NCBI GenBank assembly: GCA_023247195.1
Contig: JAHFGY010000009.1
Location: 1-32,068, forward strand
Direction of reading: 5' to 3'
Length of the DNA: 32,068 nucleotides
From: Candidatus Omnitrophota bacterium
Lineage (GTDB): Bacteria > Omnitrophota > Gorgyraeia > Aquiviventales > Aquiviventaceae
Under the pieces are notes generated by a model. That model was not told the origin of the DNA, made no database searches, and was given only the letters and a program-made list of their open reading frames with translations. Positions 605-32,068 of the stretch are shown piece by piece. Each line of letters starts with the position of its first letter. Position 1 is the first letter of the stretch. Made by a program: the position numbers and the translations under genes.

Positions 605-1494
605 GAAAGTATTACCATGCCGCCGACACGCCGCACCGCTGCGGCTCCGCGAATCATGCGCATTGGGACAATCTCTGGAGCGCAACAGCGTTCGAGGAAG
701 CGTACCGCGCGGTGGAGAACCATTTCTTGCGCGACGTGTTCCAGCGAATTTTTCCCAAGCCGGGAAAAATTCTGGAGGCCGGCTGCGGCCTTGGTCAGTA
801 CGTCGCGTATTACCGGCAGCGCGGCTACGACATCGAGGGCGTGGACAGCTCAACCGTGGGCATTGAAAAAGTGAAGGCCCGGCATCCCGAGCTTTCGGTA
901 CAGGTGGCCGACATCCGACAACTCCCCTATGCGTCCGGCAGCCTGAAGGTGTATTTCTCCGGCGGCGTGATGGAGCATTTCGAGAACGGCCCCTGGGAAG
1001 CCATGGCCGAAGCGCGCCGCGTGCTTGCCGATGACGGTCGCTTGATCATGACCGTGCCGTTCATGAATAGGGCTCGCGCGCTTCGAGACGCGTTTCCCTG
1101 GTGGCGCGGCGATCATTACCGCGTGGTCAGCGCGTTCGGCCCGCAGCCCCCGGCGCCGGCCGGCCGCGAGTTCTATCAATATGCTTTTACGCGTTCCGAA
1201 ATCGTTCGCACGGTGCGCAAAACCGGATTCGAGCCTGTGGAGATGCGGCCGGTGCAGATCGTTTGGGGCGCGAAAAAGCTTTTTGGCCGGCAGGGCACGT
1301 CCGTAACGCGGCCGGTCAACGAAATCACCCCGGCTTCCACGAACGGAGCCAGAGCATCTAAGCCCGCAGCGGGTTGGCAGCGTGCGCTCCTGACGGAGCA
1401 AGCGGCCAGCGCGCCGGGACGCATGGTCCTGAACGCGCTCGGAGGCGCCGTTGGCCACATGATGCTGTTGGTCTGCCGCAAGGCGCCGCAGTAA
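601..1494 (+). CDS. Class I SAM-dependent methyltransferase
   Basis: Motif I ILEAGCGLGQYVAYYRQRGYDIEGVDSS. ATGA overlap with upstream gene. Confidence 0.88.
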   Translation: MRKYYHAADTPHRCGSANHAHWDNLWSATAFEEAYRAVENHFLRDVFQRIFPKPGKILEAGCGLGQYVAYYRQRGYDIEGVDSSTVGIEKVKARHPELSVQVADIRQLPYASGSLKVYFSGGVMEHFENGPWEAMAEARRVLADDGRLIMTVPFMNRARALRDAFPWWRGDHYRVVSAFGPQPPAPAGREFYQYAFTRSEIVRTVRKTGFEPVEMRPVQIVWGAKKLFGRQGTSVTRPVNEITPASTNGARASKPAAGWQRALLTEQAASAPGRMVLNALGGAVGHMMLLVCRKAPQ

Positions 1495-2675
1495 TGGCAG
1501 CGATGCTCGAAGGTTGGGACATTGTTTGCTTTTCCACGACCGACTGGGATTTTCCCTGGGGAAGCCGTCAACAATTGATGAGCCGATTCGCGGCAAGCAA
1601 CCGCGTGCTGTTCATCGAATACCAAGGCTCGTTTGTCCAGGATTGGAGCGGCCGGTGCGGCGTGCGATCGCCGTCCGCTGCCATGCCCGGACGCGTTCGC
1701 GCCGTGACGCCCCGGCTGTCTGTTTGGCGGCCGCCCGGCGCATGGCCCGGAGGCTACTATTCGCTTGCCGTGAACCGAGCCAATCAAGCAAAGCTCCGCC
1801 GGGGCTTGTCATCGGTGCTCAAGGACTTGGGCTTTTGCCGCCTTTTGCTCTGGGTGTACGCGCCCTGCTCGCTGGAGCAGATCGGCAACCTGGCAGAGCA
1901 GGGAGCGGTTTACCATGCCATTGACCTCTATAAGGAAGAGACCGGCCATCCGCGCCGGCGCACCGTGATCCAGGCCATGGAGCAACAGGGCGCGCCCAAA
2001 GCGGACCTGGTCATCGCGTCCTCGCCGCCGATCCAAGACCACTTGCGCCCCTGGGCCAAAGCCCTGACCTTGCAGCCGAGCGCAACCGATGCCGCTGAGG
2101 AACCTCAGCCAACGCGCCGCCAGCGCTGGAACTGGCCGGGCAAGGTCGCGGGTTTCGTCGGCACCGTGGATGACCGCGTGGACATGAATCTCTTGGAGCG
2201 TTTGGCGGCCGCGTACCCGGAAGTGCTGTGGGCCGCTGTTGGCCCGGTCGTGGGACAAGCGCGACAAGAGCGCCTGGACCGGCTTGCGGCCCGGCCCAAT
2301 GTCCGGCTCGTCGGCCGCGTTGACCGCGCCGACGTTCCGGGGTACATTGAAAGCCTCGATGTCTGCCTTTTGCCGTACCGCCGAACCCCTTTTACCGACG
2401 CTATTTCGCCGATCAAGGTGTATGAGTATCTCCTGCAAGGCAAACCCGTGGTAGCCTCGCGGTTGGGCGGCCTGGCCGGGATGGAGAACCTGGTCGCGCT
2501 TGCGCCGAGTCCGGAAGCCTTTGAGTCGCTCGTTGCGCGCGCGCTTGAGGCGCCTGACAACGGCGCGCGCCCTCGCCGGATCGATTTCGCCCGGCAGCAC
2601 ACCTGGGACCACCGCTTCCAAGCCATCTCCGCGGAAGTGGCCGCCCGGCTCCCGCAGCGCGCCCCGGGGTCCTGA
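1494..2675 (+). CDS. Glycosyltransferase (GT4-like), paralogue of the next gene
   Basis: Start chosen at ATG 1494 (taATG overlap) rather than the track start 1374, which lies in the upstream gene. WDIVCFSTTDWDFPWGSRQQL N-terminus; LPYRRTPFTDAISPIKVYEYLLQGKPVVASRLGG donor-site motif. Confidence 0.85.
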   Translation: MAAMLEGWDIVCFSTTDWDFPWGSRQQLMSRFAASNRVLFIEYQGSFVQDWSGRCGVRSPSAAMPGRVRAVTPRLSVWRPPGAWPGGYYSLAVNRANQAKLRRGLSSVLKDLGFCRLLLWVYAPCSLEQIGNLAEQGAVYHAIDLYKEETGHPRRRTVIQAMEQQGAPKADLVIASSPPIQDHLRPWAKALTLQPSATDAAEEPQPTRRQRWNWPGKVAGFVGTVDDRVDMNLLERLAAAYPEVLWAAVGPVVGQARQERLDRLAARPNVRLVGRVDRADVPGYIESLDVCLLPYRRTPFTDAISPIKVYEYLLQGKPVVASRLGGLAGMENLVALAPSPEAFESLVARALEAPDNGARPRRIDFARQHTWDHRFQAISAEVAARLPQRAPGS

Positions 2676-4558
2676 TGCCGAACCGCATGCTGCGCAGCCG
2701 AGACATCCTTTGCATCTCATCCATCGACTGGGATTTCCTGTGGCAGCAGCACCAGGAAATCATGTCCACGCTTGCCGAGCAAGGGAACCGCGTCCTCTTT
2801 ATTGAAAACACCGGCGTGCGCTCGCCGCGCTTTTCCGACATGCCGCGCATCTTGCACCGCATCCGCAACTGGCGGCGCAGCTTGCGCGGGTTCCGTAAGG
2901 AGCGGGAGCGGCTTTATGTCTACTCGCCGCTCGTGCTGCCGTTTCCATACTCGCGGATCGCGCAGTGGATCAACCGCCGCATCCTGGTGTCGTCGATCCA
3001 GTCATGGATGCGCTCCGTGGAATTCCATGACCCGATCATTTGGACATTCCTGCCCACGCGCGTGACGCTCGACCTTGCCTCGGCCATCAATCACCGGTTG
3101 CTGGTCTACTACTGCACGGACAATTTTTCCGCTACATCCGCAGAGGCGGCCAAAGTCGTATCCACCGAGCGCGAAGTGATCCGCATGTCCGACCTCGTGT
3201 TCGCCATGTCCCAAAAAATGGTGGACTACTGCCGCCAGTACAACGAACGCGTGGTGCAGATCCCCATGGGCGTGAACACCGCGCTGTTCGAGCAGGTCCG
3301 CGATGCGGACGGGGAACAGCCGGCGGATTTATCCGGAATTCCCCGGCCGATCGTGGGCTACATCGGCGGCGTGCGCCAATCGATCGACAAAGCGCTGATC
3401 AAGCGCGCCGCTGCCGCGCGTCCGGATTGCAGCTTTGTTTTCGTGGGACCGATTCAGACCGATGTGTCCGACTTGGAGGCGCTGCCGAACGTCCGTTTCC
3501 TCGGCGGTAAATCGCATGGCGATGTTCCGAAATACGTGAAAGCGTTCGATTGCTGCATCTTGCCGTACGTGAAGGATGCGTACACCGACAGCGTTTCTCC
3601 CGCGAAGCTGCACGAGTACCTGATCATGGGCAAGCCTGTGGTATCCACAAACCTCGCCGAAGTCTCGGCGTACCGCACCGCCAACGGCGCGCAGCCGGTG
3701 GTCTATGTTGCCGACGACACGGAGACGTTTGTACGGCTCATCGACGATGCGCTGCGCGCTGAGGGTGACGGCAACGCCCGCATCGCGGTCGCGCGGGGCC
3801 ACGGCTGGGACGACAAGATCAAGCGCATGACGGATCTCATCAGCGAGCACCTAGCGCTCAAGGAAGCGCAGTCGGCGGTAACGTGGCAGGACAAGTTGCG
3901 TCGCCTTTCAGAGCCTTACGGCGTTACAACGCGCCGGCTCATGGCGCTTGCCGCCGGGGTCCTGCTGGCTTACGCCGCGCTGTTTCACACGCCGCTTGCT
4001 TGGAAGCTTGCCGAGCCGCTTCGGATCGAGCAAGCGCCGGTTGCGGCTGACGCAATCGTGGTATTCGCCGGAGGGGTCGGCGAATCCGGGCAAGCCGGCC
4101 AAGGCTATGAGGAGCGGGTGCTCAAAGCCGTGGAGCTCTATAAAGCCGGTTGGGCCAAGCAAATCATCTTTTCATCGGGCTACATCTATACCGTGCAAGA
4201 ACCCAAGATCATGCGCGCGCTCGCCATTTCGGAAGGTGTGCCGGATCAGGCCATCCTGCTGGATACCAACGCGCGCAACACCGTGGAGAATGTCCGCAAT
4301 GTGCGGGAAATCCTAGACGCGCACGGGTGGAAGCGTATTTTGCTCGTCAGCTCGCCTTACCACATGCGGCGCGCATCGCTGGTTTACCGCAAAGCCGATC
4401 CGGAGCGCCAAGTGACTTACGTGCCGGTTTCGCCCAGCCACTTTTACACGCGGAGAACAGAATCGTGGGGAGGCCGACAAGTCGCCTGGGAACAGCTTGA
4501 CGCGTGGATCCATGAGCTCGGCGCTATTTTCTATTACCGGCTGACAGGGAAGATCTAG
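2675..4558 (+). CDS. Fusion protein: GT4-like glycosyltransferase + TM segment + DUF218 (SanA/YdcF/ElyC-like) domain
   Basis: N-terminal part similar to the preceding gene (RDILCISSIDWDFLWQQHQEIM; LPYVKDAYTDSVSPAKLHEYLIMGKPVVSTNL). Hydrophobic segment RLMALAAGVLLAYAALF. C-terminal DUF218 pattern DAIVVFAGGVGE...RVLKAVELYKAGWAKQIIFSSGY...ARNTVENVRN...ILLVSSPYHMRRASLVY. Confidence 0.88.
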   Translation: MPNRMLRSRDILCISSIDWDFLWQQHQEIMSTLAEQGNRVLFIENTGVRSPRFSDMPRILHRIRNWRRSLRGFRKERERLYVYSPLVLPFPYSRIAQWINRRILVSSIQSWMRSVEFHDPIIWTFLPTRVTLDLASAINHRLLVYYCTDNFSATSAEAAKVVSTEREVIRMSDLVFAMSQKMVDYCRQYNERVVQIPMGVNTALFEQVRDADGEQPADLSGIPRPIVGYIGGVRQSIDKALIKRAAAARPDCSFVFVGPIQTDVSDLEALPNVRFLGGKSHGDVPKYVKAFDCCILPYVKDAYTDSVSPAKLHEYLIMGKPVVSTNLAEVSAYRTANGAQPVVYVADDTETFVRLIDDALRAEGDGNARIAVARGHGWDDKIKRMTDLISEHLALKEAQSAVTWQDKLRRLSEPYGVTTRRLMALAAGVLLAYAALFHTPLAWKLAEPLRIEQAPVAADAIVVFAGGVGESGQAGQGYEERVLKAVELYKAGWAKQIIFSSGYIYTVQEPKIMRALAISEGVPDQAILLDTNARNTVENVRNVREILDAHGWKRILLVSSPYHMRRASLVYRKADPERQVTYVPVSPSHFYTRRTESWGGRQVAWEQLDAWIHELGAIFYYRLTGKI

Positions 4559-5299
4559 ATGCCCGAAAAGAGTCGACGCGCGATACCTTGGCAAGCTACG
4601 GCTGCTGTTACCGCGCTGGTGGCCCTGGCAACACTCTGGTGGATGCCGGCAAGCACGCGACAGGGCGTAAACTTCCAAGTCCGCACGGTCCAGATCCCGC
4701 TTGCGGTAAAAGGCATGGACTTTTTGGTGCGCGACTGGAAATACCGCGCCGCGGCCGCGGAGATCACCGCCGGCCAACGCTCGCCGGATGAGAAGATCCT
4801 GGCCATTTATGCGTGGACCCGCGAGCACATCCGCCGGCAGCCGCAAGAGTGGCCGGTTATCGATGACCACATTCTGCACATCATGATCCGCGGCTATGGC
4901 ATCTCAGACCAAATGGCGGACGTATTCACCACGCTGTGCGCTTATGCCGGTGTCCCGGCGTATTGGCGGCTGGTGCGCGTGAGCCCGAACAAGGGAGCGC
5001 TCGTTCTTTCCTTTGCTCGCGCCGAGCGCGGCTGGATCACGCTGGATTTATCGAACGGCGTTATTTTCCGCGATGCGGCCGGCGCGCTTGTGCCTTCGGC
5101 TGCGCTGCCGGCCAGCCCTGAGCTGGTCAGCCGCGTGGTCGGCGACCGCACAGTTGACGGCGTTCCTTATGCGGATTACCTGAACGCGATCGGCGACGTG
5201 ACGCCGCCATCTCCCATGCGCTCCGAGCTGCAGATGCCCGGCCGCCGGCTCGTGTATGAGTTAAGGCGGCTGGTTGGCTTTGGCCGGGTGCCGGGATGA
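4559..5299 (+). CDS. Membrane-anchored transglutaminase-like superfamily protein, probably catalytically degenerate
   Basis: N-terminal TM (ATAAVTALVALATLWWM); transglutaminase-fold pattern SPDEKILAIYAWTREHI...RGYGISDQMADVFTTLCAYAGVPAYWRLV...GWITLDLSNG. Expected Cys position reads Ser. Confidence 0.7.
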   Translation: MPEKSRRAIPWQATAAVTALVALATLWWMPASTRQGVNFQVRTVQIPLAVKGMDFLVRDWKYRAAAAEITAGQRSPDEKILAIYAWTREHIRRQPQEWPVIDDHILHIMIRGYGISDQMADVFTTLCAYAGVPAYWRLVRVSPNKGALVLSFARAERGWITLDLSNGVIFRDAAGALVPSAALPASPELVSRVVGDRTVDGVPYADYLNAIGDVTPPSPMRSELQMPGRRLVYELRRLVGFGRVPG

Positions 5300-6708
5300 G
5301 CACGCTCACCGCCAAACCGCCGATCCGCCGCATCGCGCAGGCCGCTGCCAAACGCACCGCCTCATGGACAGATTGGCTTGAGCGCGCGTGGTTCGCGTCC
5401 ATCGCGGTGTACGCTTTTGCGCTGCCTGTATGGTTTTTCAAGCCGACAGGCATTGCGATCGGCCAGTGGAAGAGTGTGCTGGTCGTGGATGCGCTTTTTG
5501 CCGTATCTGTGCTCTTAGGCGCTGTGTGGGCGGTCGCGTCTCGCGAGCTTCGCCTCAAACCCGCGGTGTTTTTGGACGCCGCGTTCTTGCTCCTGGCCGT
5601 GATCGTGCCGGTGCTGTTTTCGCCTGAGCCGCGCGCCGGCATGCCGGACCTCTTTCGTTTCGGCTATTCCGCCGCGCTGTATGTCATGGTTGCGCACAGC
5701 CGCATTAATCATGAGCGGTTGCGGTTGATCGCTTGGCTATGGGTCGGCGCCGCGTTGATCATTACAGGCCGCAGCTTCCTGGCCATGGCGGTTTATGAAA
5801 CAACCGGCATGCGCAGCCCGTTGCTCAGTTTCCAGGGCGGGCAAGCGTATCAACAAGGCAACTTGGCGGTGCGCATCCAAGGAACATTCGCGAACCCGAA
5901 CACATTCGCGCCTTTTTTAAACACCGCTCTCGTGTTTGCGCTCACCTTGGTTCAGGAGTACAAAGGCCGCCGGCTTGCGCGGACCGCAGCCATTGCGTCC
6001 GCGGCTGTTGTTTTTATCGGCGGTTTGCTGACCTCATCGCGCGGGACAGCGGGCCTGATCCTTACGCTCGGCCTGGTTCTCTGGGCTTGGTCCGCCTCCA
6101 GCCGCTGGCGGGCGCTGATCCGCGTGCCATCCGCAGCTGCGATGATTCTTGCGGTCGCCGCGGTCATGGTGACCAGCATTTGGTGGATCTATCCCGTTCA
6201 CACCGCGCGCGGTGCTGACGGACGAACGCACCTCCAGATCAACACAGACCGCGCGCCGTACTATCTCTTTCACGCCGGCGCGCTGCGCATGGCGCGTGCC
6301 CATCCCCTAACCGGCGTGGGGCCTGGGCGGTTCGAAGGCCAGTTCAAGAATTACGTTTCCTGGGAAGAAGTGCTGCCCTCGTTCCGCTGGTTCGCGGATG
6401 ACGAAGCGGGCGTTCGCGGACGATACGCCGCGGGCTCGGACCCGCATTCCACGTGGTTCGGCTGGCTCGCGCGCGGCGGCATCGCGGGAATGGTGCTCCT
6501 CTTGTTGTTCGTGGGGCGCGCAGCAACGCGCATCGCATCCGCTCGGGACGCGGTTTCTTGGATCGCGCTGGCCGGGCTCGCGGGCGTGGCATTTGCGGGG
6601 ATTTACGTTGAGATCCTTCACATGCGGTTTATTTGGCTGATGCTGGGAGTGGCGATGGCGTGGGTAACGCGGGATACCACCGCCCGCGCCTTAGGAGGCG
6701 AAGCATGA
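5296..6708 (+). CDS. O-antigen ligase/polymerase family (Wzy_C/PF04932-like) membrane protein
   Basis: Many hydrophobic helices; SSRGTAGLILTLGLVLW; LTGVGPGRFEGQF; DPHSTWFGWLARGGIAGMVLLLLFV. ATGA overlap upstream. Confidence 0.85.
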   Translation: MSTLTAKPPIRRIAQAAAKRTASWTDWLERAWFASIAVYAFALPVWFFKPTGIAIGQWKSVLVVDALFAVSVLLGAVWAVASRELRLKPAVFLDAAFLLLAVIVPVLFSPEPRAGMPDLFRFGYSAALYVMVAHSRINHERLRLIAWLWVGAALIITGRSFLAMAVYETTGMRSPLLSFQGGQAYQQGNLAVRIQGTFANPNTFAPFLNTALVFALTLVQEYKGRRLARTAAIASAAVVFIGGLLTSSRGTAGLILTLGLVLWAWSASSRWRALIRVPSAAAMILAVAAVMVTSIWWIYPVHTARGADGRTHLQINTDRAPYYLFHAGALRMARAHPLTGVGPGRFEGQFKNYVSWEEVLPSFRWFADDEAGVRGRYAAGSDPHSTWFGWLARGGIAGMVLLLLFVGRAATRIASARDAVSWIALAGLAGVAFAGIYVEILHMRFIWLMLGVAMAWVTRDTTARALGGEA

Positions 6709-7721: not shown

Positions 7722-8494
7722 ACACCGTTGCTTTGATTCCCGCGTACAACGCGGAACGCACATTGGCTGAGATCGTTGAGCGCATTCCGCGCAACCTCGT
7801 GGACAAGATCATCATCGTCGATGATGGCAGCCGCGACGGCACCTATGACCTCATGCGCCGTTTGCCCGGCGTTGAAGCGCTGCGGCATCCCCGGAACCAA
7901 GGCTATGGCGCGGCGCAGAGCACGCTTTACGGCGCGGCGCTGGCTTCGGGCGCGCGGTACAGCGTGATCTTGCATGCCGATGGCGGTCACCGGCCGGAAG
8001 AAATCCCATTGATGCTCGGCCCTGCGCTCAATGGCAGCGCGGACATGGTCGTGGGCTCGCGGATCCTGGGTCTCTTGAGCACCGCGCGGGCGCTTGCGGG
8101 GTCGGTGGCGCTGGGCGCCATTGTGCGCAGTCCCATGCCGCCGCACCGCGTGGCCGGCCACCTGGCGCTCACGCGGCTGCAGAACGTATGCTACGGCACG
8201 CGCTACCACGCGTTCCATGACGGGTTCCGCGTTTGCACGCGCGAAGTGCTAACCCGCGTGCCGTTCGACCGGCTGACGCGTACGTACCAGTACGACACCG
8301 AATTTTTGCTCGCGGCTCATGAGTTGGGCCTGCGCGTATCCGAGGTGCCGGTGAGCTCCCACTACGACGCGCGCGCGGGCTCGAGCGTGCCGGTTATGCG
8401 TTACGGGCTGCAGGTCGTGAAGCGGGCGCTGGCTTACCGGCTCGGCGGCCGCCGCGCGATCACGCAGCCGACACCCAGCGACGCTTTGCCATGA
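7718..8494 (+). CDS. Glycosyltransferase family 2 (polyprenyl-phosphate sugar synthase-like)
   Basis: GTG start overlapping TGA. TVALIPAYNAERTLAEIVERI...IIIVDDGSRDGTYDLM; LHADGGHRPEEIPLML; SADMVVGSRIL. Confidence 0.88.
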   Translation: MNTVALIPAYNAERTLAEIVERIPRNLVDKIIIVDDGSRDGTYDLMRRLPGVEALRHPRNQGYGAAQSTLYGAALASGARYSVILHADGGHRPEEIPLMLGPALNGSADMVVGSRILGLLSTARALAGSVALGAIVRSPMPPHRVAGHLALTRLQNVCYGTRYHAFHDGFRVCTREVLTRVPFDRLTRTYQYDTEFLLAAHELGLRVSEVPVSSHYDARAGSSVPVMRYGLQVVKRALAYRLGGRRAITQPTPSDALP

Positions 8495-10194
8495 GCCGCA
8501 CCGTGCTCGGCGTGACGATTTCCGTGCATGACTCCTCGGCCTGTCTGGTGCGCGACGGCAAGCTCGTCGCCGCTGTAGAGGAAGAGCGCCTGGTCCGCCG
8601 CAAGCACACGGGTGAGTTTCCGCTTAAATCCATCGAATACTGCTTGGCCAGCCAAGGCATGACCATCGGCGACGTGGACTGCGTCGCGTACACCCAGGTG
8701 CCGTGGAAAGCGATTCCCAGCAAAATCGGGTACACGCTCGCGCGGCTGCCGCACTCCACGTCGTTCCTGGCGCGCGAGCTGTACTGGTACCTCTTGAACT
8801 ACGCGCACGTGCGCACGTGGCCGGAACGGGTCACCCCGCGCAGGGCAGACCAGCCGCCGAAACGGCTCGAGCATCTTTTTCTCGAGCACCACCTCACGCA
8901 CGCGACCAGCGCGTATTATCCCAGCCCTTTTGAAGAAGCGGCGCTGTGCTCAATCGATCAACGCGGGGAATGGGCGAGCACCTTCTTCGCCACGGCGCGC
9001 CAGAATCGCATCACCCCCATCAGCGAGATCCATTACCCGGATTCGCTCGGCCTGTTTTACCTCATGATCACGCTCTTTCTCGGTTTCCGGTATCACGAGG
9101 AATATGAAGTCATGGGGCTCGCGGCCTACGGCAAGCCGCGGTACGTGGATGAGATGGCGCAGATCGCGCGCTACACCGGCGACTTGCGCTTCGAGCTGGA
9201 CGAGCGCTTTGTTGCTTCGAGCTGGAAGCGGCTCTACACGGACGATCTCATCAGGCTGCTCGGTCCGGCGCGCGGGTACGATGAGCCGTTCACTGAGCGC
9301 CACTACGACATCGCCGCGAGCCTGCAAGCGCAGACCGAGCGCATTGTGCTCGCGCTGCTGCGCGACCTGCACCGCCGCACGCGGCTGCCGCGGCTGTGCC
9401 TGGCCGGCGGCGTCGCGCTCAACTCCGTGATGAACGGCAAGATCCTCACGGAAACGCCGTTCACCGAGCTCTTTATCCAGCCGGCCGCGCATGACGCGGG
9501 CGGCTCGATCGGCGCCGCGATGCACGCTGCGCATTCGATCCACCCGAACGGGTCCCAGCGCCAGCCCATGGACCATGTCTATCTTGGGCCGGAATTCTCC
9601 GCGGATGAGATCCGCGCATTGCTCGACAGCTCGCGGCTCGCGTACAGCGAACCCGCGGACCTGGAAAGCGAGATCGCCAAGCGGCTCTCCGAGGGAAAGG
9701 TAGTGGGATGGTTCCAGGGCCGCATGGAGTTCGGGCCACGTGCGCTCGGTAACCGCAGCATCCTCGCGGACCCGCGGACGCGCGCGATGCAGGACCGCGT
9801 GAATCTCATGGTAAAGGAGCGGCAGTCGTTTAGGCCATTCGCACCTGCGATCCTTGAGGAAAAGGTCGGCGAATACGTGTCCGGCATCCAGTCATCGCCG
9901 TACATGCTGCTCGTGGGCCGGGTCACGGAAAAAGCCAAGGCCGCGATGCCAGCCGTGGTCCACGTGGACGGCACAGCTCGCGTCCAAACCGTGAGCCGCC
10001 GCGCGAATCCGCGCTTCTGGACGCTCATCAACCGCTTCGAGCAGTTCACCGGCGTGCCGGTGCTCTTGAACACCTCGTTCAACCTGCGCGGAGAGCCGAT
10101 TGTTTGCTCGCCGCGAGACGCTATCCGCACGTTCTTCACCTCGGGCCTTGACCTCCTTGTGCTTGACCGGTTCGTTCTGGCCAAACCAAAGTAA
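8491..10194 (+). CDS. Carbamoyltransferase, NodU/CmcH family
   Basis: Kae1-like N-terminal part (GVTISVHDSSACLVRDGKLVAAVEEERLVRRKH; HHLTHATSAYYPSPF; GLAAYGKP; LCLAGGVALNSVMNGKI) and YrdC-like C-terminal part (GRMEFGPRALGNRSILADPR; RQSFRPFAPAILEE; LNTSFNLRGEPIVCSP). Confidence 0.95.
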   Translation: MSRTVLGVTISVHDSSACLVRDGKLVAAVEEERLVRRKHTGEFPLKSIEYCLASQGMTIGDVDCVAYTQVPWKAIPSKIGYTLARLPHSTSFLARELYWYLLNYAHVRTWPERVTPRRADQPPKRLEHLFLEHHLTHATSAYYPSPFEEAALCSIDQRGEWASTFFATARQNRITPISEIHYPDSLGLFYLMITLFLGFRYHEEYEVMGLAAYGKPRYVDEMAQIARYTGDLRFELDERFVASSWKRLYTDDLIRLLGPARGYDEPFTERHYDIAASLQAQTERIVLALLRDLHRRTRLPRLCLAGGVALNSVMNGKILTETPFTELFIQPAAHDAGGSIGAAMHAAHSIHPNGSQRQPMDHVYLGPEFSADEIRALLDSSRLAYSEPADLESEIAKRLSEGKVVGWFQGRMEFGPRALGNRSILADPRTRAMQDRVNLMVKERQSFRPFAPAILEEKVGEYVSGIQSSPYMLLVGRVTEKAKAAMPAVVHVDGTARVQTVSRRANPRFWTLINRFEQFTGVPVLLNTSFNLRGEPIVCSPRDAIRTFFTSGLDLLVLDRFVLAKPK

Positions 10195-10197
10195 GCG

Positions 10198-11376
10198 ATG
10201 ATTGAAACAACTGCTGACACCATCCCCATTCAATCGTTTAAAACGCCGCAGGGCGGGCCGATGACCGCGTATCTCTTTGTGCCTTACCCGCTCGACCACG
10301 CGCCCAGCCAGCGGTTCCGGTTCGAGCAGTACCTCGCTCAGCTTGAAGCCGCGGGCATCCGTTGCCGCGTGTCGCCGCTCATGTCGCCCGCGATGTACCG
10401 GATTATGTACCAACGCGGCCACTTTTTTCTGAAAGCCGCGTACTGCGCAAAAGCTCTTTTTGTCCGTCTCGCGGACGTCTGGCGGGCGCGGGGCTGCGAC
10501 ATCTGCTACGTGCACCGGGAAGCGTTCCCAATCGGGCCGCCCTTTGTCGAACGGCTGCTGGCTTGGCTCGGCAAGCCCATCATTTTTGATTTCGACGACG
10601 CGATCTATTTACCCAACGCGTCGGCCGCGAACCGCTTTGTCGAGCCGTACAAGAATTCGGGCAAGACCGCGGCGATCGTGCGCCTCAGCGACACCGTGGT
10701 GGCAGGGAACCCTTATTTAGCGGCGTACGCGGCGCACCACAACGAACGCGTCGCGATCATTCCAACCACGATCGATACCGTCCGGTATAAACCGCTGGCT
10801 CGAGAACGCGGTCCGCGCGACCGGGTATGCATCGGCTGGAGCGGCAGCCGCACCACGATCGCTCACCTGCGGCTGCTTACCGGCGTGCTGCGCGCGCTTC
10901 ATGAACGCTTTTCCATCCGCATCAAGGTCATCGGCGACCGCACCTTTGCCATTCCCGGCGTGCCGGTTGAGGCGCAAGACTGGGACCCGGCCGACGAGTT
11001 GAAGTCGCTTTCGGATATCGACATCGGCCTTATGCCGCTGCCGGACGAAGAATGGGCAAAAGGCAAATGCGGGCTCAAAGCCTTGCAGTACATGGCGCTG
11101 GGGATTCCCGCGGTCTGCTCGCCCGTTGGGGTGAACACGCAAATCATTCAAGACGGCGTGAACGGTTACCTGGCATCGACGGATGCGGAATGGATCGACC
11201 GGCTGTCGCGGCTGATCCAAGAGGAATCGCTGCGGCAGCGCCTGGGCCAAGCCGCGCGCGAAACGGTTGAAGCGCGCTACTCCGTGGCCGCCAACGCGCC
11301 GCGGTACATCGCGGTCTTCCGCGGCGTTCAGGCCCGCGTTCACTCCGCCAGTACCGTTATGCGCGGCATCGCCTGA
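10198..11376 (+). CDS. Glycosyltransferase (GT4-like)
   Basis: PYPLDHAPSQRFRFEQYLAQLEAAG N-terminus; IGWSGSRTTIAHLRLL; GIPAVCSPVGVNTQII. The start may instead be ATG 10261 (MTAYLFVPYPLD...). Confidence 0.85.
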   Translation: MIETTADTIPIQSFKTPQGGPMTAYLFVPYPLDHAPSQRFRFEQYLAQLEAAGIRCRVSPLMSPAMYRIMYQRGHFFLKAAYCAKALFVRLADVWRARGCDICYVHREAFPIGPPFVERLLAWLGKPIIFDFDDAIYLPNASAANRFVEPYKNSGKTAAIVRLSDTVVAGNPYLAAYAAHHNERVAIIPTTIDTVRYKPLARERGPRDRVCIGWSGSRTTIAHLRLLTGVLRALHERFSIRIKVIGDRTFAIPGVPVEAQDWDPADELKSLSDIDIGLMPLPDEEWAKGKCGLKALQYMALGIPAVCSPVGVNTQIIQDGVNGYLASTDAEWIDRLSRLIQEESLRQRLGQAARETVEARYSVAANAPRYIAVFRGVQARVHSASTVMRGIA

Positions 11377-13274
11377 TGTGCGGAATCGCGGGCATTGTCA
11401 GCGCTTGCGCCGGCTCTGCGCCGGATGAAGCCGCTGTCCGCGCCATGATATCGCCGCAGCGCCACCGCGGTCCGGACGCCGAAGGCTATCACGTGGACGC
11501 GCAAACCGGCGTTGCCCTTGGCCACTGCCGGCTCAGCGTCATCGATCTTTCGGCCGGCGCGCAGCCCATGTCCAACGAAGACGGCACGGTCTGGACCACG
11601 TTCAACGGCGAGATCTACAATTTTCGCGAGCTGCGCGACCGCCTCACGCAGATGGGTCACCGCTTTGCAACGCGCAGCGACACCGAAGTCATCGTGCATG
11701 CGTACGAACAGTATGGCGCGCGCTGCGTCGAGCATTTCCGCGGCATGTTCGCGCTCGCGGTGTGGGACGCAAAAACCCGCACGCTTTTTCTCGCCCGCGA
11801 CCGCATGGGAAAAAAGCCGCTCTACTACCATGAGGCCGATGGCCGATTTTACTTCGCTTCCGAGCCCAAAGCCATCTTGGCCGCGATCGGCAAGCGGCCG
11901 GACGCGGACCCGGTTGCGATCCATCACTACCTCACGTGGGGCTACGTACCCGCGCCGCACTCCGCGTTCAAAGGCTTCCGCGTGCTGCCGCCGGCGCATA
12001 CGCTCACTTGGCGAAACGGCCAAATACATATTGAACGCTATTGGCGGCTCGCTTACCTGCCCAAGCGGCAGGAGAGCGAGGAAGCGCTTTGCGACGAGTT
12101 GCTCGCGCGGCTTACGGAGTCGATCAAGCTCCGGCTCATCAGCGACGTGCCGCTGGGCGCGTTCTTAAGCGGCGGCATTGACTCCAGCACGATCGTGGCG
12201 CTCATGAGCGGTTTGATCACGGAGCCGGTGAAAACCTTCTCCATCGGCTTCGAAGAGCAGGCTTACAACGAGCTGCCTTACGCGCGGCAAGTGGCTGAGC
12301 GCTACCACACCGACCACCACGAGTTCATTGTTAAGGCGGACGCGGCCTCCATCCTCCCGGATCTCGTGTGGCACTACAACGAGCCGTACGCGGATTCATC
12401 CGCGGTCCCCACCTATTACCTTGCGAAAATGACCCGCCAGCATGTCACGGTCGCGCTGAACGGCGATGCCGGGGATGAAAACTTTGCCGGTTACGCGCGG
12501 TATGTCGCGAACCGCATGGCCGCGTCTTATGACCGGTTGCCCGGCGGCGTTCGCAGCGGGCTGCAGCGAAGTACATCGCGGCTGCCGCGGCTCGGTTCGT
12601 TCAAGAGCCCGGCGCAGCGCGCCAAGCGTTTCATGGAAGCGCTCGCGGATCCGGCTGACCGCCGCTACGCCCGTTGGATCGGCTACTTCACGGATGATAT
12701 GAAGGCATCGCTGTACACGCCGGAGTTCCAAGCCGCGGTCGGGGAAAGCGACCCGGTCGCGCTGCTCGGCCAGGCGTATGCCGATGCCGGCGATGTGGAC
12801 TGGGTTGACCGCAGCATGGCCGCGGACACCGCGCTTTACTTGCCCGGCGACCTTATGGTGAAAGTGGACATCGCGAGCATGGCGCACGCGCTCGAGGTCC
12901 GGTCGCCGTTCGTCGACCACGAGTTCATGGAATTTGCCGCGTCGCTGCCGTCGAATCTCAAACTGCGCGGCTGGAAACGCAAATATTTGCTCAAAAAAGC
13001 GGTGCGCGATCTGCTGCCGCCTGAGCTCCTCTCGCGCCGCAAAATGGGTTTCGGCATCCCGATCGACCAATGGTTCCGCAGCGAATTGCGCGACATGGCA
13101 TACGACACGCTGCTCAGCAGCCGCGCGGTCAGCCGGGGATTGTTCCGTCCGGAACAAATACGGCGGCTTTTAGATGAGCACATGCAATTACGCGGCGAGT
13201 GGCAGTTTCACTTGTGGGCGTTGTTGATGCTCGAGCTGTGGTTTCAGCGGTTCATCGACGGCGCGTCCGGATGA
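11376..13274 (+). CDS. asnB: Asparagine synthase (glutamine-hydrolysing) family amidotransferase
   Basis: MCGIAGIVS class II GATase N-terminus with Cys2; YNFRELRDRL; PP-loop SDVPLGAFLSGGIDSSTIVALM; SPFVDHEFMEFAASLP. tgATG overlap upstream. In this context possibly a sugar amidotransferase. Confidence 0.93.
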   Translation: MCGIAGIVSACAGSAPDEAAVRAMISPQRHRGPDAEGYHVDAQTGVALGHCRLSVIDLSAGAQPMSNEDGTVWTTFNGEIYNFRELRDRLTQMGHRFATRSDTEVIVHAYEQYGARCVEHFRGMFALAVWDAKTRTLFLARDRMGKKPLYYHEADGRFYFASEPKAILAAIGKRPDADPVAIHHYLTWGYVPAPHSAFKGFRVLPPAHTLTWRNGQIHIERYWRLAYLPKRQESEEALCDELLARLTESIKLRLISDVPLGAFLSGGIDSSTIVALMSGLITEPVKTFSIGFEEQAYNELPYARQVAERYHTDHHEFIVKADAASILPDLVWHYNEPYADSSAVPTYYLAKMTRQHVTVALNGDAGDENFAGYARYVANRMAASYDRLPGGVRSGLQRSTSRLPRLGSFKSPAQRAKRFMEALADPADRRYARWIGYFTDDMKASLYTPEFQAAVGESDPVALLGQAYADAGDVDWVDRSMAADTALYLPGDLMVKVDIASMAHALEVRSPFVDHEFMEFAASLPSNLKLRGWKRKYLLKKAVRDLLPPELLSRRKMGFGIPIDQWFRSELRDMAYDTLLSSRAVSRGLFRPEQIRRLLDEHMQLRGEWQFHLWALLMLELWFQRFIDGASG

Positions 13275-13284
13275 ATGTTATAAT
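13255..13284 (+). promoter_or_regulatory. Candidate internal sigma70-type promoter with extended -10
   Basis: TGTTATAAT at 13276-13284 (TGN + consensus TATAAT), with weak -35 TCGACG (13255-13260) and 18-nt spacer, at the most evident intergenic gap in the cluster. Confidence 0.4.
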
Positions 13285-13287
13285 CCG

Positions 13288-14535
13288 TTGATTTCAAGTA
13301 TGCGGGGCCCCATTAAAATTCTCAGGATCGTGACGCGGCTAAATATCGGCGGTCCGGCGATCCACGTATCGATTCTTTCGACAAAATTGGATCCGAAGCG
13401 TTTCAGCACAACGGTCGTGGCCGGAACACCCAGTCCGGGCGAGGGGGACCTGAGCGAATTGTTGAACGGCGGGGAAGCCACGGTCGTGCGGCTGCCTACG
13501 CTCCGCCAGCCGCTGGCGCCGATCGCGGATCTTCGCGCGCTGCGCGACTTGATCCGCTTGGTGTGGCGAGAACGGCCGGAGCTGATCCATACGCATATGG
13601 CTAAAGCCGGAACGCTTGGTCGCGCCGCGGGAATCCTCTATAATGGCGCCGGCCCGGGAAGACGAGCGGGGAAACGCGCGCGGCTGATCCACACGTTCCA
13701 CGGCCATGTATTGGAAGGGTATTTTTCCGCGCGGCGTTCACAGTTCTTTCTAAGCATTGAGCGGTGGTTAGGGCGGCGCACGGATTGCGTGATCGCCGTG
13801 AGCGCCCGCGTTCAGCAAGACCTGCTCGCGCGCGGGATCGGCCGGCCCGAAGCCTGGCGCGTGATTCCGCTCGGGCTTGATCTGACCGCGCTCGCCGCGT
13901 TGGCACCTGCGACCGGCGCGCGGCCGTTGCGCTGCGGGTTGATCGGGCGGCTGGTGCCGATCAAGCACCCGGAGCTGTTTATCGACGCGATCGGCAAGCT
14001 GGCATCGAGCCAGGCGGAGCCGCCGGTGACCGGCTTGGTGGTGGGCGATGGTCCTCTTCGCGCATCGCTGGAAGAGCGCGTGCGGACAAACAACTGGGAA
14101 ACGAGCGTGCGCTTTACCGGCTGGCGGCGCGACCTGGTGAATGTCCACCGTGACTTGGATATCGTGTGCGTCACATCGTGGAACGAGGGAACGCCGGTCG
14201 CCATGATCGAAGCCATGGCAGCGGGCCGCCCGGTGATCGCCACGGACGTGGGCGGCGTCCGCGACGTACTGCAAGACGCGAACAATGCGGGTGCGGAAAT
14301 TCCCGCGGGCGCGTACCAGGTAACGGACCGCGGCATTCTGATTCGCGCAGGCGATGGCGATGGGCTCATTAGCGCGCTGCAGCGCCTGGCGGACGATAAG
14401 GATTTGCGCATACGATTGGGAGAAGCGGGGCGCCGGCATGTGGTGAGCCGGTTCGCGTACCAGCGGTTGTTGACTGACATGGCGGGATTGTACGAGGAGC
14501 TCGCGGGAAAGGACACGGATGGCCGAAACAACTAG
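13288..14535 (+). CDS. Glycosyltransferase family 4
   Basis: IKILRIVTRLNIGGPAIHVSILSTKLDPKRF; IHTHMAKAGTLGR; CVTSWNEGTPVAMIEAMAAGRPVIATDVGGVRDVL. TTG 13288 or, more likely, ATG 13300 as start. Confidence 0.92.
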   Translation: MISSMRGPIKILRIVTRLNIGGPAIHVSILSTKLDPKRFSTTVVAGTPSPGEGDLSELLNGGEATVVRLPTLRQPLAPIADLRALRDLIRLVWRERPELIHTHMAKAGTLGRAAGILYNGAGPGRRAGKRARLIHTFHGHVLEGYFSARRSQFFLSIERWLGRRTDCVIAVSARVQQDLLARGIGRPEAWRVIPLGLDLTALAALAPATGARPLRCGLIGRLVPIKHPELFIDAIGKLASSQAEPPVTGLVVGDGPLRASLEERVRTNNWETSVRFTGWRRDLVNVHRDLDIVCVTSWNEGTPVAMIEAMAAGRPVIATDVGGVRDVLQDANNAGAEIPAGAYQVTDRGILIRAGDGDGLISALQRLADDKDLRIRLGEAGRRHVVSRFAYQRLLTDMAGLYEELAGKDTDGRNN

Positions 14536-15559
14536 CAAGAGACCCATGCACGCGCTCATCACCGGGGGGGCGGGGTTCATCGGCTCGCACCTGGCGGAGG
14601 TGCTCCTTAAGCGGGGAGACAAAGTCACGATCTTGGACAACCTTTCAACCGGCCGCTACGAGAACCTCGCGCATTTGGACGGGCACCCGGACCTGCAGGT
14701 CGTGATCGGCACCATCCTGAACGAAACACTCGTCGACAAATTGGTCGAGCGCTGCGATGTGATTTTCCATTTGGCCGCCGCGGTCGGCGTTGAATTGATC
14801 ATTAAAAAGCCGCTCGAATCCATGATGACCAATATCCGCGGCAGCGAAATCGTCCTTGAGATGGCGCACCGGTACCGCAAGAAAGTCCTCATCGCTTCCA
14901 CATCGGAGATCTACGGCAAGAACTCGCACGGCCCGCTTCGCGAAGATACGGACCGCGTGCTCGGCTCGCCGCTCAAAACCCGCTGGAGCTACTCCACCTC
15001 CAAGGCCGTGGACGAAGTTTTCGCCCATGTATATTGGAAGGAAAAAGGCGTGCCCACCGTGATCGTCCGCTTGTTCAACACCGTGGGGCCCCGGCAGAGC
15101 GGCGCATACGGCATGGTCATCCCGCGGTTCATCAGCCAGGCGCTCGCGGGAAAACCGCTCGAAGTGCACGGCGACGGCAAACAGTCGCGCTGCTTCCTGC
15201 ACGTGCGCGACGTGGTCGGGGCGTTGGTCAAACTCATGGAGCACCCGCAAGCCGTGGGCCAGGTGTTCAACCTCGGGAGCCAGGAAGAGGTCTCGATCGC
15301 GGATCTGGCCGCGCGCATCATCCAAGTCGCGGGCAGCGGCTCCGAGGTGCGGCTCATTCCTTACGACCAAGCGTATGAAGAAGGCTATGAGGACATGCCG
15401 CGCCGCGTGCCGGACACCACCAAGATCCGTGCGTTGATCGGGTTCGAACCCACGATGAACCTGGATCAGATCATCCGCAGCGTGATTGACAGCACGCAAC
15501 CGCCGGAGAAACCCACGCCCGCTCAGCGGAAACAAAAAGCCGTCGCGAGAGCAACTTAA
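14519..15559 (+). CDS. NAD-dependent epimerase/dehydratase (extended SDR)
   Basis: ALITGGAGFIGSHLAEVLLKRGDKVTILDNLSTG; ASTSEIYGKN; YSTSK; RLFNTVGPRQSGAYGMVIPRF. Alternative start ATG 14546. Confidence 0.93.
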   Translation: MAETTSKRPMHALITGGAGFIGSHLAEVLLKRGDKVTILDNLSTGRYENLAHLDGHPDLQVVIGTILNETLVDKLVERCDVIFHLAAAVGVELIIKKPLESMMTNIRGSEIVLEMAHRYRKKVLIASTSEIYGKNSHGPLREDTDRVLGSPLKTRWSYSTSKAVDEVFAHVYWKEKGVPTVIVRLFNTVGPRQSGAYGMVIPRFISQALAGKPLEVHGDGKQSRCFLHVRDVVGALVKLMEHPQAVGQVFNLGSQEEVSIADLAARIIQVAGSGSEVRLIPYDQAYEEGYEDMPRRVPDTTKIRALIGFEPTMNLDQIIRSVIDSTQPPEKPTPAQRKQKAVARAT

Positions 15560-15564
15560 GCCCC

Positions 15565-17388
15565 ATGCTGCTTCGAGACAGCGCTCGCTTGGTTCCTCCT
15601 TTAGCCACCGCGCTCGTTGTTTCTCTCGCCTTAACGCCATTGGTGCGCCTGATCGCGGTGCGCTGCGGCTGGGTCAGCCGCCCGGTGCACGACCGATGGG
15701 GCAGGCGCGCGATCGCCCGCCTGGGAGGCGTGGCTATGTATGCCGCGTTTCTCCTTTCCACCCTCTTCTGGATGCCGCTCGATAAGCCGGTGGTAGGGCT
15801 GTTGATCGGCTCAACCATGGTCTTTGGGCTCGGCCTGGCGGACGACATCAAGCGCATGTCTCCCTATACCAAGCTCATTGGCCAGCTCGTTATCGGCACC
15901 GTGGTCGTTGTGTGCGGCATCCAAATCAACATCGTCCAATGGGAATGGGTCGCGATTCCGGCTACGGTGCTGTGGTTCGTGCTTGTGATGAACGCTTTTA
16001 ACCTGCTCGACAACATGGACGGCTTAGCGTCCGGGACCGGCGCGATCGCGGCCGGCTTTTGCGCGATCCACGCCGCGATGAGCGGCCAATGGGCGGTCGC
16101 GAGCCTGGCCGCCATCGTATGCGGCTCCTCGGTCGGATTCCTCGCTTTCAATTTTCCGCCGGCCAAAATCTACATGGGCGATTCCGGCAGCCATCTTTTA
16201 GGGCTCAGCCTCGCGGCGCTGGCGCTCATGGGCACGTGGCAACATTCCACCCAATTGCTGAGCGTCCTGGCTTTCCCGGCGCTGGTCCTGGCGGTTCCGA
16301 TCTTCGACACCTGCTTCGTCACGTTGCAGCGCTTGCTGAACCGGCAGCACCCGTTCGTCGGCGGCACGGACCATGTTTCTCATCGTCTGGCCATTCTGGG
16401 GTTGAGCGTGCGGCAAACCGTGCTGACGCTGTACGCGCTCAGCATGGCATTCGGGCTTCTCAGCCTGATATCCGTGCAGCTGCGCCCGCTGCCCGGCGTG
16501 GCTCTGTGGCTGTCCGCCTTGACCGGCTTGATTCTCTGCGGCGCTTACCTGGCGAATGTGAATGTCTACCGCCTCGAAGACCGACCGGCCGGCGACGAAA
16601 CCACGGCGGTACCCACGGGCGCGACGCGCATCGAAACCATGCTGCTCCACAAGCGGCGCTTGCTCGAAATCCTTGTCGATTTTTGCCTGATCTGCAGCGT
16701 GTATGTATTCGCGTACCTGTTGCGGTTTGAAGGCTACCTCAGCCCGGATCTCCAACGCTTGATCGTAAAATCGCTGCCCATTGTTTTGGTCATCAAGCTG
16801 ACGAGCTTTGCCTCTTACGGGCTTTACCGCGGGATCTGGCGCTACCTCAGCCTCACGGACATCATGGCCATGTTCAAAGCGGTCATCATCGCCTCGGTCG
16901 CTTCGGCGATGGCTATTCTTTATGTTTGGCGCTTTGAAGGCTTTTCACGGTCGGTGTTGATCATCGACGCCATGCTCACCTTTCTCGCTGTGGGCGGCTC
17001 GCGCGTGGTCGAGCGGCTCTTGGACGAGTGGATCACGCTCGCCACAGCCAGAGGCAAGCCGGTTCTGATTATCGGCACCGGCGACGCCGGCGTGCGTATT
17101 GTCCGGTTGCTCAAGGACGAGGAGCCGGTTATCCACCGCGTGGTCGCGTTTCTCGACGACGACCGCCGCATGCACGGGATGGTTATTCATGGCGTGCCGG
17201 TCGTGGGAGGTCGGGACCGGCTGGTTGAGCTTATCCAGCGTTATGGCGTTCGGGAAGTTTTGGTCGCGGTCTGCGATCCGCCGGGCGTCTTGCTTGAGCA
17301 CATCCGGACTTGCTGCGAGCCGAACAGCGTGACGTGGCGCGTCGTGACAGCCAGTGTGACCAACGCCGCTTACACGCATGCCGATTAG
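15565..17388 (+). CDS. Fusion protein: WecA/MraY-family polyprenyl-phosphate sugar-1-phosphate transferase + WbpM/CapD N-terminal-like TM/CoA_binding_3-like Rossmann module (no dehydratase domain)
   Basis: PNPT motifs GLADDIKRMSPYTKLIGQ, NAFNLLDNMDGLASG, FPPAKIYMGDSGSHLLG, HPFVGGTDHVSHRL. Second half: RLLEILVDFCLICSVYVFAYLLRFEGYLSPDLQ...ASYGLYRGIWRYLSLTDIM...GKPVLIIGTGDAGVRIVRLL...VVAFLDDDRRMHGMVIHGVPVVGG, ending at ...VTNAAYTHAD. Confidence 0.9.
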   Translation: MLLRDSARLVPPLATALVVSLALTPLVRLIAVRCGWVSRPVHDRWGRRAIARLGGVAMYAAFLLSTLFWMPLDKPVVGLLIGSTMVFGLGLADDIKRMSPYTKLIGQLVIGTVVVVCGIQINIVQWEWVAIPATVLWFVLVMNAFNLLDNMDGLASGTGAIAAGFCAIHAAMSGQWAVASLAAIVCGSSVGFLAFNFPPAKIYMGDSGSHLLGLSLAALALMGTWQHSTQLLSVLAFPALVLAVPIFDTCFVTLQRLLNRQHPFVGGTDHVSHRLAILGLSVRQTVLTLYALSMAFGLLSLISVQLRPLPGVALWLSALTGLILCGAYLANVNVYRLEDRPAGDETTAVPTGATRIETMLLHKRRLLEILVDFCLICSVYVFAYLLRFEGYLSPDLQRLIVKSLPIVLVIKLTSFASYGLYRGIWRYLSLTDIMAMFKAVIIASVASAMAILYVWRFEGFSRSVLIIDAMLTFLAVGGSRVVERLLDEWITLATARGKPVLIIGTGDAGVRIVRLLKDEEPVIHRVVAFLDDDRRMHGMVIHGVPVVGGRDRLVELIQRYGVREVLVAVCDPPGVLLEHIRTCCEPNSVTWRVVTASVTNAAYTHAD

Positions 17389-30201: not shown

Positions 30202-30961
30202 GCCTAATCCAGAAATCGCAGGCGGCCGGTCGCCCGCCGCGGCCTCGTTCGGGAGCCGTTTCGGCTACTACCTTCCGATTCTCGGCTACCACTCCGTTGG
30301 CCAGAACCTGTGGCATCATGTGCCCACGGTCAGCGCAGCGGCGTTTGAATGGCAGCTCGCTTTCTTGAAGAAAACCCGCCACTCAGTACTGAGTCCGAAT
30401 GCCCTTGCCGATCTGCTGGAAGCCGGCCGGGATTGGCCCCGAAACGCAACCGCGATCACGTTCGACGACGGCTACGAAGACAATTGGACCGTTGCCTGGC
30501 CGCTGCTAAAGGACCATGGTTTCCCGGCCATCGTGTTCATCACCCCGTCCGAGATCGGTTTGCCGGGCTTCATGAACTGGGACCAAGTGCGCGCAGCCGC
30601 CGAGCAGGGCCTGACAATCGGTTGCCATACCATGAATCACAGTTATCTGCCGTCGGTTCCGGATGAGCGCCTGCACCAAGAGTTGGTGGAATCCAAGACC
30701 ACGATCGAACGCGAAATCGGCCGGCCGGTCGACTTTCTCAGTTATCCCATCGGCGGCTTTACCCAAGCCGCGCAGGACGTGGCAAAACGCGCGAACTACC
30801 GGCTTGCTTTCACCACCAACCGGCGCAGCTTCTGGCCCGGCGTTGACCGATGGGCGCTGCGGCGCGTCAAAATCACGGATAAAGACCGCTACGACCTCAC
30901 GCTGCGCGTCAAGCTTTCCGGATATTACGACTGCTTCCGCCAGCTGCGTAAGCCTTCGTGA
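30161..30961 (+). CDS. Polysaccharide deacetylase (NodB homology domain)
   Basis: GTG start with agaaggaggcctttGTG RBS. AITFDDGYEDNW; IGCHTMNHSYLPSV (HxxxH); LSYPIGGF. Confidence 0.93.
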   Translation: MPDTALPLPHVTVEPNPEIAGGRSPAAASFGSRFGYYLPILGYHSVGQNLWHHVPTVSAAAFEWQLAFLKKTRHSVLSPNALADLLEAGRDWPRNATAITFDDGYEDNWTVAWPLLKDHGFPAIVFITPSEIGLPGFMNWDQVRAAAEQGLTIGCHTMNHSYLPSVPDERLHQELVESKTTIEREIGRPVDFLSYPIGGFTQAAQDVAKRANYRLAFTTNRRSFWPGVDRWALRRVKITDKDRYDLTLRVKLSGYYDCFRQLRKPS

Positions 30962-32068
30962 CCCGCATCCAAATCGCTTATGTGAAAGCCGGCACCGGCC
31001 ATCGCCGGGCCGCGGAAGCGCTGATGCAAGCGGTCCAGGAACGCTTGCCGCACGCCCAGGTCGAATGCGTGGACGCGCTGGAGTCCGCGGACGGTCTCGC
31101 CGCCCGCTGCTACGAGCACTTTTACCTTTTCCTCGTGCGACGCGCCGCCTTCCTCTGGAGCATCGGTTACCGCTGCCTCGACACCCGTCCCGCTCATTTA
31201 TTGCTTCGCCCGGTCCGCGCGCTCTGGAACATGACCGTCGGGCGGCGCTTTGCCGCTCATCTCAGCACAAATCCGCCCGATGCCATTATCTGCACCCATT
31301 TTCTTCCCTCGGATATTTGCGCCAGCCTCCGCCGGGCCGGCAAGCTGGCCAGCCGCGCCGCGGTTGTGGTGACTGACTGGCACCCGCACCAATTCTGGGC
31401 GTGCCCGGAGTTGGATGCTACGGTGGTCAACTCCCCAGCGGCCGCCGAGCGGCTGCAGCATTTCGGCGTTCCGCGCGAGCGGATTCATGTCATCGGCATT
31501 CCGGTTGACCGAGCGTTTACCCGGCCGGTCGACCGCTCCGCGGTGCTCAAGCGGCTTGACTTGGACCCGAAACGAGCGACGCTTCTCCTGACCAGCGGCG
31601 GCACCACCGTTGGCCGCTTCGTGGAGATGGCGCAGCGCTTGGCAGCGCTCGAAGCCGATCTTCCGGGCCGCGCTCAATTGATCGTTGTATGCGGCACGGA
31701 CACAGCCGCGCGCGAGCAACTGGCGCCGGTCGTTGCATCCGCGGCCATGCCGATCCGCGTGCTTGGATTTGTGGAAACCATGCCGGAGCTCATGGCCGCC
31801 TCGGACTGCATCGTTGCCAAAGCGGGCGGGCTCACGCTGAGCGAAGCGCTGGCTTGCGGGCGCCCGATGGTCATCTACCATGTGATTCCAGGGCAGGAAG
31901 AAGCTAACGCGCGCTACGCGGTGAATCAAGGCGCTGCGATTCTGGAATCCAACCCGCAGCGCGCGGCGGATGCGGTTAAAAACCTGCTACTCGACCCGAA
32001 AGCTTTCGAGCGTCTTCGCGCGCGCGCCGAAGAACTGGGGCAGGGCAATGCCGCGCAGCGCATCGCAT
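30958..32068 (+). CDS. MGDG synthase/processive diacylglycerol glucosyltransferase-like (GT28, MurG-fold) protein, 3' partial
   Basis: Absent from the ORF track because it runs off the window. Reading from GTG 30958 (GTGA overlap): VTRIQIAYVKAGTGHRRAAEALMQAVQERLPHAQVECVDALE...VVVTDWHPHQFWACPELDATVVNSPAAAERL...LLLTSGGTTVGRF...SDCIVAKAGGLTLSEALACGRPMVIYHVIPGQEEANARYAV, open to the edge. Confidence 0.88.
   Translation, partial: MTRIQIAYVKAGTGHRRAAEALMQAVQERLPHAQVECVDALESADGLAARCYEHFYLFLVRRAAFLWSIGYRCLDTRPAHLLLRPVRALWNMTVGRRFAAHLSTNPPDAIICTHFLPSDICASLRRAGKLASRAAVVVTDWHPHQFWACPELDATVVNSPAAAERLQHFGVPRERIHVIGIPVDRAFTRPVDRSAVLKRLDLDPKRATLLLTSGGTTVGRFVEMAQRLAALEADLPGRAQLIVVCGTDTAAREQLAPVVASAAMPIRVLGFVETMPELMAASDCIVAKAGGLTLSEALACGRPMVIYHVIPGQEEANARYAVNQGAAILESNPQRAADAVKNLLLDPKAFERLRARAEELGQGNAAQRIA

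Follow-up and report, generated by a model that had tools for sequence, protein, structure and literature searches.

What does a DUF218 domain do when it forms a single polypeptide with a glycosyltransferase (GT)? This question is raised by a 627 amino acid open reading frame, P0001, found on a contig of a Candidatus Omnitrophota bacterium. The window analyzed here is the whole 32,068-nucleotide stretch of that contig. DUF218 and GT4 are each known families, but no description of the fused architecture was found in the open-access papers searched. In E. coli, the levels of peptidoglycan and ECA are under the control of the DUF218 proteins SanA and ElyC. To our knowledge no substrate or activity has been established for either protein, and the biochemistry of DUF218 is poorly defined. 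The fusion gene, its parts and the gene that precedes it are as follows.

1494..2675, + strand: GT4 paralogue lacking DUF218 (identity about 32%), with a 1-base overlap with the fusion gene (Pfam, tree)
2675..4558, + strand: GT4-transmembrane-DUF218 fusion gene, P0001, 627 aa, ATG start (open frame, Pfam, full-length homologues)
2675..3805, + strand: GT-B glycosyltransferase, residues 1–377 (Pfam, AF2, Foldseek, conservation)
3806..3988, + strand: continuous predicted helix, residues 378–438, leading out of the GT domain and into the membrane (AF2 model)
3938..3994, + strand: predicted transmembrane segment, residues 422–440, N-terminal side basic (hydrophobicity windows)
4049..4519, + strand: DUF218 domain, residues 459–615, with R481, T536, H563, R566 and E614 (Pfam, alignments, fold)

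The original prediction read the single 627-aa frame as a GT4-like enzyme, a hydrophobic helix and a DUF218 domain, and both Pfam and the hydrophobicity windows agree with it. The domain search, run as a test, shows DUF218 (PF02698) in the C-terminal part with E = 3.3e-29 and 101.9 bits (cut-off 27.6). Positions 1–131 of the 133 in the profile are matched, thus the segment belongs to DUF218. Glyco_trans_1_4 and Glycos_transf_1 match within residues 227–363 (E = 6e-10 and 1e-7; 39.9 and 32.1 bits, both above cut-off); together with the GT-B fold found by Foldseek, this places the N-terminal part in GT4. The helix lies where it had been predicted, and the motifs singled out earlier fall on conserved functional positions: ARNTVEN contains T536, and SSPYHMRRA contains H563 and R566. 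The AlphaFold model, the topology and the context of fused homologues, all described below, came out in favor of a fusion as well. No second DUF218 was found in this genome (2.16 Mb, 236 contigs; the window is contig C44).

A join of two genes by an assembly or frameshift error would also give such a frame. Full-length homologues of about 620 residues, stop-free and with 41%–49% identity, are present in 26 of 59 relative genomes; over all homologues the identity is 40%–50%. A query of public genome contigs with the single protein gave no relative, while an alignment-based query gave 172, of which 80 loci were kept. All 80 display the fusion in one frame (contig ends cut four of them). Because full-length, single-frame homologues occur in many genomes, the fusion is not an assembly join. 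The identical join without internal stops in the 80 loci and the 26 relatives excludes an artefact; nothing was found in its favor and its probability is negligible.

The 80 named loci include 53 from Candidatus Omnitrophota and 14 from Acidobacteriota. One or two records each come from Nitrospinota, Nitrospirota, Rokuibacteriota, Methylomirabilota, Planctomycetota, Thermodesulfobacteriota, Chloroflexota, Cyanobacteriota and Actinomycetota; since nearly all records are metagenome bins, phyla with a single record may be mis-binned. The nearest rows to the window protein in the tree are Omnitrophota. A phylum-wide sample gave a match at E <= 1e-60 in 28 of 193 genomes. Class-wide, a DUF218 match is found in 98 of 293 genomes, and a fusion-length DUF218 frame in 70 of 294 (strong matches, frames of 577–1044 aa), the latter counted by frame length and not by gene-by-gene domain inspection. 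The earlier statement that DUF218 proteins usually stand alone is correct for E. coli but not for this class, where strong matches lie mostly in fusion-length frames. DUF218 matches are also present in giant open frames of the class (9,075 to 22,400 aa; G053:C16, G258:C8, G154:C6, G067:C35 and G047:C7), which constitute a second, separate DUF218 context.

The N-terminal half of the GT part is strongly conserved among the fusions, with the segments SIDWDFxWQxHQEIM, ENTG, PFPYSR and WTFLPT, and K311 and E314 are invariant in 76 fusion sequences. The complete EX7E motif of GT4 enzymes is not present: E314 is retained, and position 306 is N, T, H, S or C in 75 of the 76. The upstream paralogue also lacks the first Glu of the motif, as judged by eye. 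As this Glu is not conserved, activity of the fused domain as a glycosyltransferase is probable, but not certain.

The AF2 model, based on 76 aligned sequences, has a mean pLDDT of 92.1 and a pTM of 0.76; with this pTM, the placing of the domains relative to each other is not fixed by the model. A Foldseek comparison of the GT part with the PDB shows similarity to the GT-B enzymes MshA, sucrose-phosphate synthase, PglA, PimB', WaaG, GumK and PimA. A sequence search of the PDB gave one match, Tll1590, which covers the GT part only. Among NCBIfam models, the best match to the GT part is the TuaH-type GT4 of teichuronic acid biosynthesis (NF047676, E = 1e-30). The fusion is not a TuaH equivalog, however: its score of 106.8 bits falls short of the cut-off (550), and the TuaH model, 384 positions long, does not extend to a DUF218 domain. 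Campylobacter PglA and GumK share the GT-B fold with the fusion (Foldseek E = 6e-14 to 2e-11), but their identity to its GT part is about 16%–18% and both lack a DUF218 domain. The acceptors of PglA and GumK are polyprenyl-linked, and these two enzymes and PimA are among the GT4 enzymes that use lipid acceptors. In a tree of GT sequences the fused proteins cluster apart from stand-alone relatives, with the exception of locus L138, which is nested inside on a long branch.

In 74 of 76 fusion proteins the linker holds the strongest hydrophobic window. Lys and Arg are in excess before the helix relative to after it in 71 of these 74 (mean 5.0 vs 1.8). By the positive-inside rule, this bias points to a predicted N-in/C-out topology, with a cytoplasmic GT and an extracytoplasmic DUF218. 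The AF2 model shows residues 378–438 as an unbroken 61-residue helix that would link the GT domain to the membrane segment.

SanA and ElyC, both anchored in the inner membrane of E. coli, resemble the fusion in family, in the membrane anchor and in having the domain outside, a trait that in the fusion is a sequence prediction (the 71 of 74 above). They differ in having no glycosyltransferase. The fusion is not an equivalog of either protein (NF008092 and NF007794; 25.3 bits vs 363 and 205). SanA acts in the periplasm, and its T125A, H149A and E182A variants do not complement, while C150A is functional (PMC12176290). Further variants that lose function are R152E, E182R and, in the pocket, R69E (PMC13251401). 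The protein was mostly stable in the loss-of-function point mutants (PMC12176290, PMC13251401).

When the fusion is aligned with SanA, ElyC, YgjQ and another eleven DUF218 proteins, SanA R69, T125, H149, R152 and E182 correspond to R481, T536, H563, R566 and E614 of the fusion. A first MAFFT alignment had paired SanA E182 with V603; this was dropped, as the addition of more stand-alone DUF218 sequences moved it to the invariant E614. The window protein thus has the T/H/E triad of the SanA/ElyC type and the pocket arginines. Among 76 fusions, R481 is present in 75, T536 in 71, H563 in 63, and R566 and E614 in all. Since residues essential in SanA are kept, the DUF218 pocket looks intact, although a strict triad is weakened by the replacement of H563 by N in the remaining 13. 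Two acidic residues that are invariant in the fused clade, E470 and E480, are extra, being absent at the aligned positions of SanA. A separate model of the DUF218 part (pLDDT 89.6, pTM 0.88) resembles viral DUF218/YdcF proteins in a fold search. The fold search of the PDB gave weak USP-like matches only, with no DUF218 entry among the best 50 matches listed.

The fusion gene sits in glycan clusters, and glycan genes are prominent among its neighbors. This supports the glycan context that had been proposed, and with it the relevance of the fusion to DUF218 function. The commonest nearby clusters in 72 loci are GT4 (40), NAD epimerase (36), asparagine synthase (35) and phosphoglycosyltransferase of the WecA/MraY type (31). 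Among 101 immediate same-strand neighbors, Pfam identifies DUF4330 (15), GT4 (13), GT2 (12), asparagine synthase (9) and polysaccharide deacetylase (8). All of these are raw counts. As the neighborhoods vary, no single glycan is implied. Further genes in the window are:

4559..5299, + strand: transglutaminase-like protein (PF01841), starting directly after the fusion stop (Pfam)
5296..6708, + strand: Wzy/O-antigen-ligase-like membrane protein (Pfam score 31.0 bits, slightly below the cut-off of 31.7)
15565..17388, + strand: phosphoglycosyltransferase of the WecA/MraY type (PF00953), fused to a CoA_binding_3 module (Pfam)

In three loci (L052, L065, L121) the fusion is immediately preceded by a homologue of the transglutaminase-like protein, and relatives of the Wzy/O-antigen-ligase-like protein are found in 37 of 81 fusion loci. 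The WecA/MraY-type protein is the likely source of a polyprenyl-linked acceptor. Its joining of PF00953 to CoA_binding_3 looks conserved, as 23 of 39 cluster members from fusion loci are 540–680 aa long. The window also carries a carbamoyltransferase (PF02543/PF16861) within the glycan cluster at 8491–10194, and an MGDG-synthase-like glycolipid glycosyltransferase at 30958–32067 that runs off the contig end.

DUF4330 (PF14221) is the commonest immediate neighbor family and by profile search lies directly downstream of the fusion in 17 of 81 loci; an example is L055, positions 11851–13122. No mention of DUF4330 was found in the literature searched. Class-wide, it occurs in 39 genomes, of which 34 also have a fusion-length DUF218 frame, compared with 70 of 294 overall (Fisher p = 8e-20, with related genomes treated as independent). 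The two are within 400 bases of each other in 22 of the 34. A profile search gave no DUF4330 match in the window; two partial matches are present elsewhere in its genome.

Two loci show other arrangements. In L138 (6161–8604, − strand) a complete GT gene precedes one that seems to encode half a GT domain, a membrane helix and DUF218; the fusion appears to have been split or duplicated here. L133 has a stand-alone 215-aa DUF218 inside a gene order of AsnB, GT4, epimerase and WecA-type, and the same order is present in the window at 11376–17388.

The explanation we favor, to which we assign slightly less than an even chance, is that the fusion is a bitopic enzyme, probably with two functions, that takes part in the assembly of polyprenyl-linked glycans, with the GT inside and DUF218 acting on the flipped intermediate outside. 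The cytoplasmic GT4 domain would add one sugar to a lipid-linked oligosaccharide at the inner leaflet. The helix that ends this domain would span the membrane and set DUF218, with its SanA-type T/H/E pocket, at the outer leaflet. There DUF218 may modify, hydrolyze or gate the flipped form of a lipid-linked intermediate from the same pathway, often alongside DUF4330. The computed domains, conservation, predicted topology, pocket residues, and linkage to glycan genes and DUF4330 form the basis of this explanation; from them we infer what the acceptor is, that DUF218 is catalytic and that both domains meet the same molecule. It is favored because the closest resemblance of the GT domain is to GT4 enzymes, a family with several members that act on lipid acceptors, because SanA and ElyC both act at lipid-carrier glycan steps, and because the gene context is one of glycan synthesis, with WecA-type genes near 31 of 72 loci. 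ElyC controls phosphoglyceride-linked ECA, a lipid-carrier glycan step, and SanA affects peptidoglycan polymerization and the use of lipid II. As neither has an established activity, catalysis by DUF218 is an extrapolation, and as both are E. coli proteins without a GT, the parallel with the fusion is one that we infer.

The main rival to an enzyme fits the data nearly as well, and we regard it as possible but not probable. Here DUF218 would be a sensor or feedback domain that binds the flipped intermediate or the finished polymer outside and tunes the cytoplasmic GT through the helix. ElyC together with cyclic ECA provides a post-transcriptional regulation of ECA-PG, and binding and sequestering of lipid II by SanA has been suggested as an alternative to catalysis. 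The unbroken 61-residue helix predicted to join the GT domain to the membrane also speaks for a sensor, and the change of H563 to N in 13 of 76 fusions points the same way. However, E614, R566 and R481 are invariant or nearly so, and the matching SanA mutants lose function, which fits catalysis at least equally.

In another reading, DUF218 would be a docking module, and the fusion would chiefly hold the GT at the membrane or in a complex for glycan assembly, of which DUF4330 might be a member. This would agree with the strong co-occurrence of DUF4330, which lies downstream in 17 of 81 loci, and with L138, where the GT and the half-GT-helix-DUF218 protein are separate adjacent genes and the covalent linkage is therefore dispensable. 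The helix alone would suffice as a tether, however, and a scaffold would not seem to require such strong conservation of the pocket residues; we consider this improbable. Far less probable still is a cytoplasmic, YdcF-like DUF218 that works, together with the GT domain, on a soluble nucleotide-linked intermediate. E. coli YdcF, also of the DUF218 family, is predicted to be cytoplasmic and is cited as binding S-adenosylmethionine, and the DUF218 fold resembles nucleotide-binding USP-like proteins. Against this, the fusion has a clear transmembrane segment and a strong positive-inside bias, and at the T and H positions YdcF has C and M, whereas the fusion agrees with SanA, ElyC and YgjQ in having T and H. 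A cytoplasmic placement of the fused DUF218 is thus unlikely.

The bifunctional enzyme may be taken one step further: the fused DUF218 would be an outer-leaflet enzyme acting on the product of its own attached GT, with DUF4330 as a dedicated partner, which together would form a two-sided checkpoint for carrier-linked glycans. This extension is rather doubtful. If true, it would give DUF218, including SanA and ElyC, its missing biochemical role. The conserved covalent link to a GT narrows the likely substrate of DUF218 to the carrier-linked product of that GT, and the DUF4330 link brings a second uncharacterized protein to the same step. Through these two links, the long-standing question of what DUF218 does becomes testable in vitro.
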